The notes below the pieces were generated by a model, which ran no database searches, was not told the DNA's origin, and was given only the letters and a program-made list of their open reading frames with translations. Shown piece after piece: positions 4,071 to 40,565 of a stretch of 41,914 bases of DNA (positions are counted from its first letter, which is position 1; every line of letters begins with the position of its first letter). Source of the stretch: a virus; IMG/VR virus record IMGVR_UViG_3300037487_000675, positions 1-41,914 of that record. One strand, written 5' to 3'. Both the position numbers and the translations under genes were made by a program.

Positions 4071-4248
4071 CGCTTTTGTCCTCCCCAGGTTGTTGCCTTA
4101 GAATGTGGTCAATTTCCTCGATGCCTTCCAGTTTGGTATTTATCTCCAGCATCTTTTTGCGTTGCCCGTAGGCCATGCCAAGGTTCTGCATCAGTACATA
4201 CCATTCGGCGCGTGCTTGATCGGTTAAGCAGTCCAGGAAGTCAGGCAA
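4057..4248 (-). CDS. Small helical hypothetical protein
   Basis: A 63-residue protein, MPDFLDCLTDQARAEWYVLM followed by a charged helical stretch (QRKKMLEINTKLEGIEEI), probably a coiled coil. It overlaps the methyltransferase upstream by eight bases and the next gene by 14. The N-terminal LTDQARAEWY motif also occurs at the start of some phage small terminases, but the terminase pair is elsewhere, so I leave it unnamed. Confidence 0.55.
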   Translation of the reverse strand: MPDFLDCLTDQARAEWYVLMQNLGMAYGQRKKMLEINTKLEGIEEIDHILRQQPGEDKSDANS

Positions 4249-5404
4249 TGTTCACCTTCATTGGTATGCTAATATACTGCATACGTTTCTTGATTATCTG
4301 ACAATACTTCGGGGATAACTCTATAAGCACCGCTTTGCGGCCTAAACGCTTGCTCACGGCCCCGGTTGTCCCTGTGCCTGCGAATGGATCAAGCACCACG
4401 CCCGGATCAAAGGATGCGCCGCAGCCGCAATCTGTATAACCAATATCCTCTCGCTTTGCAGGACTAACCATTGTCCCGCTTGATGCAGTTCTGTTGCCCG
4501 CAGATGCACCCCAATCAGTACGCTTGATAACCATGTTTTCAGTTTCGTATATCTTCTCCCTCGCCTTCCCGCACTTGGTACAGATAGCAGCCGGACACCC
4601 TGCTAATATCGGCGTTTCGCATAGCTTCTCAGGATAGGCAGCATAATGGTCTGACTTGCCGCTTTCCGTGGGGATATCCCATACACAGCGAGCGTTACGC
4701 AAGCCGTTGGTTGGAATTGTGGCAATCAACTCACCCGTCTCGGCCATACGCTTAAATGAGGATCCCGTCCTGGCGCCGTTGCTACCATCATCTGTCCGGC
4801 CTGCCCACCCATACCTGGCACGTTCTATTGTGGATTCCGTTTGCTTATCAAACTGCTGCTCAAAGAAATACTTACCCTGCTTGCTAAACATATACAGGTA
4901 TTCAAAGTCCTCAGTAAACCTATCCTTTACGCTTTCCGGCATTGGATTGCGCTTCCACCAGATGATTGTGTTGCGCCGGATAAAACCAAGTTGGTCCGTC
5001 ATAGCCAGGGCAAAGCGTTCGGGGATACCGATTAGGGATTTGGCGGGGATACCAACTGGCTTATTTTCCCATTCTCCTGATTGCCTTGTACTTGATTTAC
5101 TTATGCCCGTGTTTTTATCTCCATGATGAGTCCCACCACCCGCATAACTATCCGCTATATTCACCCAACAAGTGCCTGTCTTTTTAATCACCCGTTTAAC
5201 CTCATCAAATATCTGCATGAGGTGGTCGATATATTCTTGAAAGGTCTTTTCAAGGCCAATCTGCCCGTCAGCATGATAATCACGCAATCCCCAATAAGGC
5301 GGTGAAGTCATGCACATATCAACACTTTCATCCGGCATTGTTTTCAGTACCGATAACGCATCACCCTGCAAAAGTGATATGTGCGTATCCTGGTACTCAG
5401 GCAT
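4241..5404 (-). CDS. DNA methyltransferase, beta class (probable N4-cytosine or N6-adenine)
   Basis: A 387-residue AdoMet-dependent DNA amino-methyltransferase. Motif order is beta-class: the catalytic motif IV TSPPYWGLRD lies near the N-terminus (about residues 35-45) and motif I DPFAGTGTTG near the C-terminus. TSPPYW is the form often seen in N4-cytosine enzymes. The centre has a CTKCG...CGCG cluster that may bind zinc and a variable target-recognition region. ATG 5404 was chosen over one 14 codons upstream because GAGGAGG sits eight bases before it and it overlaps the small gene upstream. No cognate restriction enzyme is visible, so it probably protects phage DNA. Confidence 0.88.
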   Translation of the reverse strand: MPEYQDTHISLLQGDALSVLKTMPDESVDMCMTSPPYWGLRDYHADGQIGLEKTFQEYIDHLMQIFDEVKRVIKKTGTCWVNIADSYAGGGTHHGDKNTGISKSSTRQSGEWENKPVGIPAKSLIGIPERFALAMTDQLGFIRRNTIIWWKRNPMPESVKDRFTEDFEYLYMFSKQGKYFFEQQFDKQTESTIERARYGWAGRTDDGSNGARTGSSFKRMAETGELIATIPTNGLRNARCVWDIPTESGKSDHYAAYPEKLCETPILAGCPAAICTKCGKAREKIYETENMVIKRTDWGASAGNRTASSGTMVSPAKREDIGYTDCGCGASFDPGVVLDPFAGTGTTGAVSKRLGRKAVLIELSPKYCQIIKKRMQYISIPMKVNIA

Positions 5405-5549
5405 AGTCGGCCTCCTCCTCGATATCGTCCGCTTCACCCCATTCAACTAACTGCTCAACGTATCTCAGTAATATGCAGCAGTTACGGTGTGCGCTCCATG
5501 CTTGACAGCTTATCTCGCACTCTTTGTCCCTTAAAAAGCATTGCTTCAT
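5397..5549 (-). CDS. Cys-rich microprotein (50 aa)
   Basis: A 50-residue ORF filling the gap between two methyltransferase genes. AGGAAG lies about seven bases before ATG 5549, and the stop overlaps the next gene's start (ATGCCTGA). Five cysteines (positions 4, 11, 15, 24, 25) lie in the N-terminal half and a strongly acidic tail (WGEADDIEEEADYA) ends it. It may bind metal. Function unknown. Confidence 0.6.
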   Translation of the reverse strand: MKQCFLRDKECEISCQAWSAHRNCCILLRYVEQLVEWGEADDIEEEADYA

Positions 5550-29388: not shown

Positions 29389-29988
29389 ATGTTTATTTGT
29401 CAATGTGGATGCAACCAGGAAATACCACCTGCCAAGTGGCATGAAACTCATCCACCCCGATTCATTAAAGGTCACAATACCCAGCGAGGGGATCATTTAT
29501 ACGCGAGATATTCTACTCACCGCGTCCCGCCTGGCGGAGTACCTTGTGATTGTGGGTGTGGCGGAATAGTGACTGAGTATAAACCGAGTGGATACCCGCG
29601 TTACCAGCGAGCCAAAGATGGCAAATTCTATCTGCCAAACCATAATCCCGTGAAGCGAGGCCCCGCGAGCCATAAATGGAAAGGTGGCCGGTATAAGAAT
29701 AGTGATGGATATGTCTTTATTTATATGCCAGAACACCCAAATGCTAACAAAGATGGGTGTGTCTCTGAACATCGATATGTTTGGGAGCAGGCTAACCGCC
29801 CCCTTAAATCAAGTGAAGATGTCCATCATATCAACGGAATACGTGATGATAACCGGATCGAAAATTTAATAGCGTTGACCAAAGGTCAGCACTGTAGCCT
29901 CGAAGTTAAAAAACGAGGTGGCATCCCAACTACCAAAGAGAGTTGTAGTAGAGGCGGAAAACTCGGCGCGAAAGCCCGCTGGGGCTAA
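29389..29988 (+). CDS. HNH endonuclease (plus strand, free-standing)
   Basis: A 199-residue protein, the only convincing plus-strand gene. The N-terminal half has C-x-C-G-C and CDCGCGG zinc clusters (residues about 4-9 and 53-59) with GHNTQRGD and NHNPVKRG turns, a DNA-binding arrangement. The C-terminal HNH is SEHRYVWEQ...EDVHHINGIRDDNRIENL. It has its own promoter and AGGAGG site. It lies between convergent tail genes and overlaps 29985-30182 by four bases, so it looks like an inserted homing element. Confidence 0.88.
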   Translation: MFICQCGCNQEIPPAKWHETHPPRFIKGHNTQRGDHLYARYSTHRVPPGGVPCDCGCGGIVTEYKPSGYPRYQRAKDGKFYLPNHNPVKRGPASHKWKGGRYKNSDGYVFIYMPEHPNANKDGCVSEHRYVWEQANRPLKSSEDVHHINGIRDDNRIENLIALTKGQHCSLEVKKRGGIPTTKESCSRGGKLGAKARWG

Positions 29989-35097: not shown

Positions 35098-36011
35098 TTA
35101 GGTCCTTGTGCTGGACAGAGCGACGAAGGGGCTCTGGTAAGAGGTCGTGCCCTTATACGGGGTCAGGTAAGTGTCCCACATGGGCTGCCCGTCGCAGCGG
35201 TAGACAAACCTGAAGGCGGTCTGGTCGGTCTGGAAGTTGACGTGAATGCTCGAAGCGCTGGCCATTGAGCCTTTGTCGATCATGACGTACTGTGAGAGGT
35301 CGGCCAGGATGATGTCGCCTACGGTGCCGAGGGCTGCGCACTGCTCGCAAGGAATTACCGGGCGTCCGAAGAGCGTCCCGTAAGGTGCGCCGGACAGTCC
35401 GCCAGCGGGCATATAGACGGCGATGCCGCCTGCGCCTACTGCGAGGCCCATGGTGTAGAGCTGCGGTTCGATGTTCTGGTTGATTAACCAGACATAATTT
35501 GCAGCGTTGGGGCCGAAGCGGGAAGCCCACATTTTGATGATGTTTTCCGCAACGATGGTGCTTGAGCCCTGGCCGGTTTCAGCCGTGACAGTCACCAATG
35601 CGCCGGAGTTGAGGATGCCGAGGGGTTTGCCTGCGCCGTCGCCGTTGATGATGGCGTCCGCCAGTTTGAAGTCAAACTCAGCGGCAAATGCCTTCTGTAT
35701 CCATGCCTCAAGAGCCGAGGCGTCCTGCAGGAGCTCGTCAGTTGCGGTACAGTAACCGATCAGCTTTTTCAGTTCAAGGCTAACCTGTTTGAATGAGGGG
35801 TTGGATTCGGTTTTAGAGCCGCCCTCATTCATCCAATATGCCCGGATGCCGCCGAAGCGTGAGCCGTCCGCGCGGTTGGAGTCGGACACTGCCGGTATTT
35901 TCAGCGCGTTGCTGTTGGCCGAGATGGGGATGCGGAATACCCGGTTCACAATGTCGCTGGCCAGGAAGGTCTTTTCGAGTAGCTGAGTGGCGAAGTCGGT
36001 CTGTACTAAAA
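35098..36011 (-). CDS. Major capsid protein (HK97 fold), exon 2
   Basis: Downstream exon of the interrupted capsid gene. In frame it gives LVQTDFATQLLEKTF...RVFRIPISANSNALKIPAVSD..., through GFKLADAIINGDGAG-like, LGILNSGALVTVT, VWLINQNIEPQL and ending YKGTTSYQSPFVALSSTRT, the HK97-type capsid shell protein. There is no start codon or ribosome site at its head; an in-frame TAA lies in the intron just before it. Joined to exon 1 (36916-37159) the protein has 385 residues. An internal ATG at 35949 is an artefact start. Confidence 0.92.
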
Positions 36012-36915
36012 CATTCTGTTACCACCGATTGCTCGGCGGTTAGGTCATTTCTGCCTAACTCTTACACTTTCGCTGTAAGTTCGGACTCTATCTTCACAGA
36101 TTGATTAACGGGTATTAGATATTGATATCTTTCGTGGTTATTGCGTTGGAATGTATATCTACATTCCCTGGAACAGAAGTGCGTTTGATGTTTGCCAAAC
36201 CGGGATGGAGAACCTATCATAGTTCCCCCACAGTTGGCACACTTGCGTTCCTCTCGCATATTCAATTCATGTACTCGTTGTTCTTGTATCTTCCTGATTT
36301 CACTGCGTTCAATCTGTGCCCTGCGTATAGTCTCTGAGGCTCCCCGTCGTTGAAGTGGTAAGCAGGCTTCTAAAATTTCCAATTCCTTTTCGGTGTATGG
36401 ACAATCGTGTTTGCCTGGTATATAGGTTACTTTTCTTGACTCGCAATATGCTAATACTAATTGGCTTCTTACATATTTGTTGCCGGTTAAATGCTCGCCA
36501 ACACAATCTAATAGTTTAATCAAGTTTGATTGATGCTTGACTTGCAATTTATAACACAATTTATCTTTGGTTTTATATTGTCCTTGGATTGCTGAAAAAT
36601 GAGTTATTCCGAGCTTGCCAAATATAGAAGATGCCCTTAGAATTATTGCCTCATCAGTATTATTGATACATACCATAGGAGTTACTGTAAATCTACCACT
36701 CTTGGAATGTGTGCCCGTAACCAGTCCCACATATCCCTCGCCATCAATAATACCTGCGAGCCATCCTAATTCAACTTGGGTTGCCTGCTGATTGCCCATT
36801 GTGCCATCCTTCACATTTTCACTCTCACTAATTATATCATAATTAGCTTCAAGTAGCGAAGGCTTTAGGGGTTTCCAGCATACAGCAGGGTTTAGGGAGA
36901 GCATTTAGTTGTTAT
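36012..36915 (-). ncRNA. Group I intron (904 nt) in the major capsid gene
   Basis: The 5' exon ends GGAGGGU (36922-36916) and pairs with the guide GCUCUCC (36902-36896), giving a 7-bp P1 with the standard U-G pair at the splice site. The core motif TGCTGGAAACCCCTAAAGCC (36880-36861) fits P4/P5, and TGTGAAGATAGAGTCCGAAC (36098-36079) is the P7-region signature of phage group I introns. A P9-like hairpin with GCAA loop lies at 36022-36039, and the intron ends in G at 36012. Splicing makes GGA GGG TTT TTA GTA CAG, i.e. GGFLVQTDF, the expected capsid motif. Confidence 0.93.
36062..36799 (-). CDS. LAGLIDADG homing endonuclease in the intron
   Basis: A 245-residue protein. ATG 36799 is chosen for its AAGGA site eight bases upstream; the frame continues 35 codons back through the intron core without a site. 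Residues 11-22 (LGWLAGIIDGEGYV) form the LAGLIDADG motif. Only one clear motif is seen, so it may act as a dimer. The C-terminal part has CANCGG...HFCSREC, a zinc finger. The last codons overlap the P7/P8 core. It should cut intronless capsid genes. Confidence 0.9.
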   Translation of the reverse strand: MGNQQATQVELGWLAGIIDGEGYVGLVTGTHSKSGRFTVTPMVCINNTDEAIILRASSIFGKLGITHFSAIQGQYKTKDKLCYKLQVKHQSNLIKLLDCVGEHLTGNKYVRSQLVLAYCESRKVTYIPGKHDCPYTEKELEILEACLPLQRRGASETIRRAQIERSEIRKIQEQRVHELNMREERKCANCGGTMIGSPSRFGKHQTHFCSRECRYTFQRNNHERYQYLIPVNQSVKIESELTAKV

Positions 36916-37159
36916 ACCCTCCGTCCGCCGGGACACCTTCGCTGTTTCCAACGATGGCCTTTAGGCGGGGGTCTTCACCGCCGCCGGTCTTGGCACGCAT
37001 GACAGCGTGGAGTTGCTCACCCAGGGATTTGAAGCCCGTGGTCTCCTCTGCCTGTCCGCCAGGGGTGAAGCGATTGACGATTTTCTTGTCCTCTTTGGCC
37101 TGATATTCCGCGACTGCTTTCGCGGCTATTTCAGCGGTCATTTCATCTGTAAGTTCCAT
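36916..37159 (-). CDS. Major capsid protein (HK97 fold), exon 1
   Basis: The first 81 codons plus one base of the capsid gene. AGGAGG lies seven bases before ATG 37159, which decides the start; the frame runs 19 codons further back. It reads MELTDEMTAEIAAKAVAEYQ, a charged helix (the delta-like N-terminal arm that is usually cleaved), then FKSLGEQLHAVMRAKTGGGEDPRLKAIVG and GVPADGG, after which the frame enters the intron and stops at 36905. With exon 2 it makes a 385-residue protein. Confidence 0.92.
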
Positions 37160-38097: not shown

Positions 38098-39969
38098 CTA
38101 AATAACAGGTGCAGGAGCGCATACACAATTTGGATGCAGCGGCGGATTAGGCATTTCGTCCAGCGTGAATACCTGCCCATCATAAGGTTCGCAATCAGGG
38201 CAAGGGTCGGGGCCGCATAACCATTTCCACTGCTCCACGCCTGCTTCCCTGTATCGTTCAATGGCCGCCTTATTAGCAGCCTGCATGGTTTCATATCGCG
38301 CTATACGCTCGGCGCGATAACTCTCCGGGCCTATGTAATCTGTGAATATACCCTGGACGCGGGCGGTTAATTCAGGGACTGTCTCCCCGGCACGCATCCC
38401 TTCAGCTAATGCCTCTCTTAGTTTAGAAATTGTCCCATCATCGATGAATTTAATCATCTCGCCAGCATGGGCAAGTATCCACTGCTCGGCGGACGGGGTT
38501 ATGTGATAAGTTACCCCTGGATTAACAATGGCATCCGCTTCACGTGACGATGCTATATAGATCGCTGTCAATACGGGAATAAGTAACAACAACCAGGCCG
38601 CTTTGGATTTATCCCGATCGAATAATTCACCTTCGGGATCGTCCAGATTGCCTAAGACTTCCTCTAATTGGTCGCGCCATCTGCGCCTCGCAACCTCTTC
38701 AATGTCTTTTTTCTTTTGGTCTATACCTTTAATATATGAGTACCAGTAGGAATGGTCAGTTGCCTTTTTTTTTACACCAAGCGTCATGCCACCAAATGGA
38801 TTAGATGGTGCAACCAGCACATCACCTTCGGGCAGCGGATCCAGGCCTTGAAGTTCGCGCGCCTCGTTGATGGTCATGTAACCAGACTTAATCCCGGACT
38901 CTGCGAGCGCCCGCTTCTCTTCCACTGACTCAGGAACCACGTCGTCAAAATCAAGATAAAGGTTCTCGGAGTGCGGCCACATCGGGATAAACTGCTCATT
39001 AAGTTTGCCTTGCAGCCTTTTAAGTCTCGGGGTGACTACCCAACGTGCAAAGGTGTAATCCCCGGCCTCTGCATTAGCGCGGTTGACGTTCTCGGTTATA
39101 CCCATCACGTTTAAAGGCATACCGAATATCCCTAAGATGTTGTCCCTGTTAAGTAGTCTCAGTTCTTTGAAGTCCATATCTTTAGCTGTTTGGGATATTT
39201 GCTGGTAGCCTTTACCTGCGCCCACATCTTGTATAATAGCCATACCGTGAGCCTTAGCTGTACCTTGATGCCTCTCTCTCCATTGCATCCTTAACCGGTT
39301 AAATTGTTCTTCTGATAGTGTCCCTTCAAATGAAATCACCCCGTCCGGGCGGGCAGAGTTATAGAAAAAGTTACGGTTCCACTTGCCCGCGTACAGTTCG
39401 GAGTCCAGGTCATAGGCCAATGCTTGCACAGGGCCGAGGCCCCGGTAAGGGTTAGATGGATTGGGCAGCTTATGATGTATGACCAGTTCCTTGTCCAGCG
39501 GTATCTTCTCGTTGCCGATCTGGTAAACATACCCGGCAATAAAATCTTTCTTCGAAGGGACAACCGACATCTTATCCGGCGGCACAATCCACATTTCCCC
39601 AGGTAAGCCGCCTTTGTTGCGGTTAATTACCCAAAAGCACTCACCCGTTAGCCCCATGTAAATCTCATGCAGTTCGATAAACTCTTGGAAGGTTTGGAAG
39701 GGGTTTACAAAATCTAACAGTTGTATGATAGGGCTGTTCTCAACCTCTGTCAGTTCCCCGTTCCTTTCAGTGTACAGGCACCAGTTAGCATCGGCCACGC
39801 CCTGGGCGATCTTGGAAATGACGGCGAACAACCATCCGACCTCGCCGAAAGCACTTATAAAACCCCTCATGTCCCGGTCAGGAGGAACGGCTGATGAGTA
39901 GTTCCATAAATAGGGAGTGGCCGGCGATTTAATTTCCTTGGGCTTAAATAATCTGTCAAATATACTCAA
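38098..39969 (-). CDS. Portal protein fused to a MuF-type minor head domain
   Basis: About 623 residues. The first 400 are an HK97-type portal (WLFAVISKIAQGVADANW..., GLGPVQALAYDLDSELYAGKWNRNFFYNSARPDGVIS, GMPLNVMGITENVNRANAEA). After a helical linker and a hydrophobic stretch, residues about 520-623 form a Phage_Mu_F domain (AERIARYETMQAANKAAIERYREAG, CPDCEPYDGQVF, PPLHPNCVCAPAPV) with Cys/His residues. I favour TTG 39969, whose TTGA overlaps the upstream stop and which has GGAG before it, over ATG 39999. Confidence 0.9.
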   Translation of the reverse strand: MSIFDRLFKPKEIKSPATPYLWNYSSAVPPDRDMRGFISAFGEVGWLFAVISKIAQGVADANWCLYTERNGELTEVENSPIIQLLDFVNPFQTFQEFIELHEIYMGLTGECFWVINRNKGGLPGEMWIVPPDKMSVVPSKKDFIAGYVYQIGNEKIPLDKELVIHHKLPNPSNPYRGLGPVQALAYDLDSELYAGKWNRNFFYNSARPDGVISFEGTLSEEQFNRLRMQWRERHQGTAKAHGMAIIQDVGAGKGYQQISQTAKDMDFKELRLLNRDNILGIFGMPLNVMGITENVNRANAEAGDYTFARWVVTPRLKRLQGKLNEQFIPMWPHSENLYLDFDDVVPESVEEKRALAESGIKSGYMTINEARELQGLDPLPEGDVLVAPSNPFGGMTLGVKKKATDHSYWYSYIKGIDQKKKDIEEVARRRWRDQLEEVLGNLDDPEGELFDRDKSKAAWLLLLIPVLTAIYIASSREADAIVNPGVTYHITPSAEQWILAHAGEMIKFIDDGTISKLREALAEGMRAGETVPELTARVQGIFTDYIGPESYRAERIARYETMQAANKAAIERYREAGVEQWKWLCGPDPCPDCEPYDGQVFTLDEMPNPPLHPNCVCAPAPVI

Positions 39970-40565
39970 TAGACCATCTCCATAACTTCTTGCGAGCATC
40001 TACGGGCTGCGATTTCACAGTATTTTTCAGAGATTTCGATTCCAATGGAATAGCGGTTGAGTTTCTTGGCGGCAACAAGCGTTGTGCCACTTCCCATAAA
40101 CGGGTCAAGAACCAAACCCGTAGTCTTTGAATGTTGAATACACCATGCCATAAGAGCGATTGGCTTTTGTGTCGGATGCCCAACTCTTTCCGCATTTACG
40201 GCTGCGATAGGATAATCAAAAACATGGGTATTGATATCAAGGTTAGTCCATGCCAATTCTGCATCGCTCATTGACGTAGCAGAGTCACGCTTATACCACA
40301 CCAACCATCCACGATTGACAGGTAATTGATAATACTGCCCGCCCCAGATAATAGACGGCCTATCTACAACAAGTGATGGGATTATTTCGCTTATTTGGTT
40401 GTCCCAACTTTCGTGATTTCCCCATGTCCCACCTGCTAACCTTTTACCGAGACCGTATGGAGGGTCAGTTAGTACTAAATCCACCTTAACATCAAGTGAA
40501 GGCAATACCTCACGGCAGTCTCCATGATAAATCTTTACCCATTTATCAGAATAATATGGCTGCAC
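39966..40565 (-). CDS. DNA methyltransferase, beta class (DPPY)
   Basis: A 199-residue site-specific DNA methyltransferase with the catalytic TDPPYGLGK (about residues 34-42) and motif I DPFMGSGTTL near the C-terminus. It starts at GTG 40565. The first 38 and last 45 residues nearly match those of the 5560-6234 enzyme, while the middle differs and is shorter. It stands between packaging genes, an odd place that fits insertion of a copied cassette. Confidence 0.88.
   Translation of the reverse strand: MQPYYSDKWVKIYHGDCREVLPSLDVKVDLVLTDPPYGLGKRLAGGTWGNHESWDNQISEIIPSLVVDRPSIIWGGQYYQLPVNRGWLVWYKRDSATSMSDAELAWTNLDINTHVFDYPIAAVNAERVGHPTQKPIALMAWCIQHSKTTGLVLDPFMGSGTTLVAAKKLNRYSIGIEISEKYCEIAARRCSQEVMEMVY

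Follow-up and report, generated by a model that had tools for sequence, protein, structure and literature searches.

Group I introns that carry endonuclease genes have been described within the major capsid protein (MCP) genes of several phages. In the mycobacteriophage LittleE (Cluster J), splicing of the capsid intron was shown both by RT-PCR and by N-terminal sequencing, and the GG(F/Y) motif closely follows the capsid maturation site (PMC3706429). The MCP genes of Delta and Zeta crAss-like phages likewise contain group I introns with endonuclease domains (PMC7886860), and for the phiPA3 intron endonuclease gp210 an advantage in co-infection has been shown (PMC11620839). The major head protein gene of Tuc2009 (mp4) is also interrupted by a group I intron, which carries an endonuclease ORF. 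I-CreI, I-CvuI and I-MsoI, which are encoded by algal introns and share the single-motif LAGLIDADG fold, target organelle rRNA genes.

The stretch of viral DNA analyzed here (termed the window) is the 41,914-nucleotide IMG/VR record IMGVR_UViG_3300037487_000675. Its MCP gene is interrupted by a group I intron that carries a LAGLIDADG gene and is very probably mobile, acting as in the mechanism proposed below; such an arrangement is of a known kind, but there is a notable family behind it. Like LittleE, the window has an HK97-type MCP gene interrupted by a group I intron that carries a LAGLIDADG gene; both endonucleases match phrog_5046, and both introns are inserted at the GG(F/Y) motif, the two Gly codons of which form P1. 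Unlike the window, LittleE encodes its endonuclease on the opposite strand (23% identity over 115 residues) and has its insertion 1 nt upstream (phase 0), a position fixed by the P1 register; an exactly shared insertion site was therefore rejected. Tuc2009 mp4 differs in that its ORF belongs to other endonuclease families (phrog_559) and in its capsid family and site, whereas the crAss-like MCP introns, also of group I and with endonuclease domains, belong to an infestation that affects core genes generally (PMC7886860). The algal enzymes share the fold of the window endonuclease, but are only 12-17% identical to it and lack its C-terminal finger. The initial annotation was only partly right in calling a capsid gene an unusual host: the LittleE, Tuc2009 and crAss-like introns were already published, and the lineage to which the window intron belongs occurs mainly in MCP genes.

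The interrupted capsid gene and its intronless relatives

The features of the locus are collected in Table 1. The capsid frame had initially been annotated as split into two exons, both with correct coordinates, and joining these exons confirms that the proposed splice sites restore an unbroken frame of 385 codons plus a stop, with GGFLVQTDF across the junction; the range given (36012-37159), however, comprises the intron and exon 1 rather than the whole gene. The annotated capsid identity also holds, the protein being of the HK97 type: in a profile search exon 2 matches PF05065 (Phage_capsid; E 4.7e-49), and genes for the portal and for a prohead protease (Peptidase_S78) lie upstream of the MCP gene. 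The GC content is 41% in the intron versus 58% in the exons.

Table 1. Coordinates of the capsid gene, the intron and its structural elements, and the intron-encoded endonuclease
Feature	Position	Strand	Remarks
MCP gene including intron	35098-37159	-	
Shine-Dalgarno AGGAGGT ahead of MCP exon 1	37172-37166	-	strong
MCP exon 1	36916-37159	-	244 nt; 81 codons + 1 base
Group I intron	36012-36915	-	904 nt; preceded by U, terminal G
MCP exon 2	35098-36011	-	914 nt; HK97-type Phage_capsid
Intronless site			GGCGGCTTCCTGGTA
P1 5' strand GGAGGGU	36916-36922	-	codons Gly-Gly + first base of Phe
Internal guide sequence GCUCUCC (P1 3' strand)	36896-36902	-	
P10 strand ACUAAAU	36903-36909	-	partner UUUUAGU at exon 2 start, 36011-36005
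P3 5' strand CCCUGC	36885-36890	-	partner 36319-36324
P3 3' strand GCAGGG	36319-36324	-	
P4 5' strand UGCUG	36876-36880	-	partner CAGCA, 36786-36790; invariant
Core strand AUGGGCAAUCAGCAGGC (P5/P4/P6)	36783-36799	-	contains AUG, the probable endonuclease start
P6 3' strand (GCC), J6/7, P7 5' strand (GAGACUA)	36328-36340	-	
P8 5' strand CACAGAUUGA	36309-36318	-	partner 36095-36104
P7 3' strand AAGAUAGAGUCC	36083-36094	-	
P9 hairpin	36061-36079	-	GAAA loop
P9.1	36059-36039	-	
P9.2 hairpin ACCGCCGA-GCAA-UCGGUGGU	36021-36040	-	
LAGLIDADG endonuclease gene	36062-36799	-	245 aa; frame open to 280 aa from ATG 36904
Shine-Dalgarno-like GAAGGA of endonuclease gene	36807-36812	-	predicted paired with CCUUC (36862-36858) in P5a; single-sequence prediction
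UAAAUG	36902-36907	-	exon-1 frame stop, then in-frame intron-ORF ATG
C-terminal Cys-rich finger CANCG...HFCSRECR	36161-36241	-	coded in P8 loop

A search of IMG/VR with exon 2 returned 45 relatives, none of which is interrupted among those covering the site (L011 and L038 start downstream of it). The nearest intronless alleles (L001, L002, L003 and L034; about 91-92% nucleotide identity) align with zero gap at 36916/36011; in the DNA alignments of these four and six others there is no insertion at the predicted junction, and one of the ten contains a single-base gap well downstream. Because the empty alleles align straight across the predicted junction, the insertion is fixed to 36915-36012; shifting the splice site by 1 nt changes the conserved Phe to Val.

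Intron-bearing relatives were found through a DNA scan for the core motif ATGGGCAATCAGCAGSC, an MCP HMM and then an endonuclease alignment. Seven distinct alleles--the window, L168/L169, L170, L171, L172/L173, L175 and L330 (the 3' junction of which lies beyond the piece of contig read)--are interrupted at the identical base of the conserved GG(F/Y) motif, namely between the first and second bases of the F/Y codon; in L174 the insertion is shifted 4 nt upstream and separates the two Gly codons. The endonucleases at the GG(F/Y) motif form one clade (support 98/97). Where long enough to compare, the MCPs of intron-bearing hosts are about 22-54% identical to that of the window (42-54% for the nearer kin, and 47-49% for the host of the nearest), while the intronless L001 and L003 MCPs are 99% identical to it at the amino acid level. 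In other words, the intron is present sporadically and discordantly with its host gene, as a homing intron is.

Relative to L001, the window has mismatches at 5 of 18 positions flanking the junction versus 84 of 1140 elsewhere (p 0.009); these junction differences (from GGC GGC TTC CTG in L001 to GGA GGG TTT TTA in the window) are synonymous and create P1 and P10. The second Gly codon is GGG in 6 of 6 intron-bearing and 10 of 43 intronless alleles (p 0.0006, uncorrected for phylogeny). Such changes would fit either co-conversion or later adaptation to the guide, which are indistinguishable here.

That the intron is mobile, as the initial annotation had proposed, is strongly, if indirectly, supported by the empty alleles in 99%-identical capsids, the related introns in 42-54%-identical ones and the synonymous excess at the junction. 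The same pattern of absence and presence and the same junction changes, along with an open endonuclease frame and a conserved catalytic motif, argue against an intron that splices but is immobile, being inherited vertically with an inactive endonuclease. This alternative is unlikely, although the window copy is the sole one found in its MCP subfamily and no direct donor of it was found, the nearest endonuclease being about 50% identical.

Ribozyme fold and selection on the exons

The fold was examined in an alignment of seven introns (the window, L168, L170, L171, L172, L174 and L175) that is nearly gap-free within the core, with pairs counted on hand-registered segments (one bulged G in the window P9 being omitted); full-length covariance models are impractical for introns with ORFs inserted in P6 and P8. 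Over P1, P10 and P3-P9, 325 of 350 cells contain standard pairs, and two-sided changes occur in 30 of the 50 pairs, including pairs of P1 and P10, which involve exon bases. P3 is paired in all 42 cells, with five of its six pairs covarying, and P8 in 51 of 56, with seven of eight covarying; when the 3' strands were re-dealt 2000 times, the pairing observed in P3 or P8 was never attained. P4, being invariant, is uninformative on covariation. The 5' half of the intron has a folding z of -4.25, and in all seven aligned alleles a U precedes the intron, a G ends it and P1 contains a U.G pair. Thus a group I core (P3-P8, P4-P6, P7 and P9) is recovered by covariation, and comparison with homologues puts the predicted fold beyond reasonable doubt.

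The 7-bp P1 ending in U.G and the P4/P5 and P7 motifs noted initially were all found; the GCAA-capped hairpin is likewise present, but is better termed P9.2 than P9, since a GAAA-capped P9 and P9.1 precede it. The Rfam check that the initial annotation suggested gave a mixed result: a search at the gathering threshold returned no match, while RF00028 matches the correct strand and region with 24.7 bits (E 7e-4) against a gathering score of 50, a shortfall probably due to the long ORF insertions.

Between the window MCP and that of the intronless L001 there are 79 synonymous and 4 nonsynonymous codon differences (dN 0.011, dS 0.36), a substitution pattern resembling that between two intronless alleles. 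Judged by these codons, the interrupted MCP is under purifying selection, which, given 79 versus 4 differences, would not be expected of an unspliceable gene unless the insertion were very recent. This bears on whether the intron might be degenerate, its splicing lost and the phage defective for want of an intact MCP. The sub-threshold Rfam score favors such a reading, but every core helix is intact and covarying, the exons are still under purifying selection, and the endonuclease retains both an intact frame and its IDGEG motif, so that this reading is very improbable. Insertions of another type have virtually no probability: nothing beyond the low Rfam score speaks for them, an intein is excluded by the stops in the exon-1 frame, the covarying group I P3-P9 core is decisive against any of them (a group II intron included), and an assembly artefact is at odds with the homologous introns present in contigs from other metagenomes.

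The intron-encoded endonuclease and the proposed mechanism

The LAGLIDADG gene reported initially is upheld by its conserved motif and its predicted fold. The motif, WLAGIIDGEG with its catalytic acid, is nearly invariant among 22 relatives, and Pfam LAGLIDADG_3 matches with E 5e-4, just under its cut-off. A PDB sequence search with the endonuclease found no relative, and the best Foldseek matches of its AlphaFold model (mean pLDDT 79.8; about 95 over most of the domain) are the LAGLIDADG proteins I-CvuI, I-CreI and I-MsoI. Given its single motif, the endonuclease is probably a homodimer. The complete Cys finger is found only in the window and in its two nearest members (L146/L168).

The endonuclease ORF overlaps nearly the whole ribozyme core. 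Homologues of its product share the sequence from MGNQQAT onwards, which makes AUG 36799, a codon that sits within the P5 3' strand, a likelier start than ATG 36904. In five of eight inspected alleles (the window, L168, L170, L171 and L175; the adjacency is not clear in L172, L174 and L330) the exon-1 stop adjoins or overlaps the intron-ORF start, hinting at translational coupling of the endonuclease.

In the proposed mechanism, the late transcript would fold so that the end of exon 1 (GGAGGGU) pairs with the guide (GCUCUCC) to form P1; exogenous guanosine would cut after the U at the exon 1 end, the 3'-OH of which would then attack after the terminal G (36012), with P10 (UUUUAGU paired with ACUAAAU) aligning exon 2 to yield a continuous MCP message. 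The intron ORF would give rise to a LAGLIDADG endonuclease that would cut intronless MCP genes of co-infecting phages at their GG(F/Y)LV codons, after which the intron and a few flanking bases would be copied in by repair. On unspliced RNA, ribosomes coming from exon 1 would halt at the UAA beside the ORF start, and translation of the endonuclease would probably compete with ribozyme folding. We infer splicing in the cell, cleavage, homing and translational coupling from the features described above.

The wider lineage and its capsid-gene hosts

With the endonuclease protein alone as query nothing was found in viral contigs, cultured phages or bacterial genomes, nor did its alignment find anything in genomes; it was the pattern scan for the core-motif DNA that opened up the intron family after protein queries had failed. 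A repeat endonuclease scan with 22 sequences yielded almost no new loci, so the motif search is saturated. Cultured phages yielded almost no members of the lineage, and the open-access papers searched do not describe it.

For 29 core-bearing loci outside the set with close HK97-type matches, the ORF following the endonuclease was classed using PHROGs: 23 of these ORFs encode major head proteins of several families, and the remaining six are either short, located far downstream, without a match or coding for another nuclease. In contrast, among the 25 commonest families of 67 ORFs that follow group I cores lacking this endonuclease, only phrog_267 (two members) is a major head protein, a contrast that is qualitative because many of the 67 are other endonucleases. 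The window intron is part of a LAGLIDADG lineage whose members sit mostly in MCP genes. We lean toward the broader view that this is an undescribed LAGLIDADG group I lineage specialized on capsid genes, clades of which would home into codons conserved in MCP families unrelated to one another, and whose ribozyme core also serves as the beginning and a portion of the endonuclease gene, perhaps helping a phage to disable the capsid gene of rivals in co-infection.

The MCP genes of uncultured phages recurrently harbor group I introns, which break both MCP annotation and marker-gene surveys. The sets of occupied and empty alleles provide natural material for testing how an endonuclease keeps to a conserved protein motif when its codons vary synonymously, and the cutting of capsid genes as a co-infection advantage becomes testable, as with phiPA3 gp210 (PMC11620839).

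Several minor observations concern individual loci. L176 and L179 (the only loci besides the HK97 set with exon 1 inspected and P1 assigned by eye) contain related introns at one site in N4-gp56-like capsid genes, between YG and DI(S/T)P, with UACGGU/GCCGUA as P1; this is a second conserved capsid site. In L193-L198, L202 and L204, a LAGLIDADG gene without a recognized intron core immediately precedes a capsid gene (phrog_267 for L196), as though free-standing beside its target; in L193-L198 this neighbor is an MCP gene. In L060 and L070, which have a group I core without this endonuclease, the following ORF is also capsid-like. In L170, at about 4690-4740, the frame of MCP exon 2 changes ~70 nt past the junction, through either an assembly error or a broken gene.

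Elsewhere in the window, an HNH endonuclease gene (29389-29988, + strand; phrog_20891, 6e-25) runs counter to the structural genes around it and is probably a free-standing homing gene. There are also two DNA methyltransferase genes (39966-40565 and 4241-5446, - strand), the former of which matches N6_N4_Mtase in two stretches and is flanked by the genes for the large terminase and the portal.
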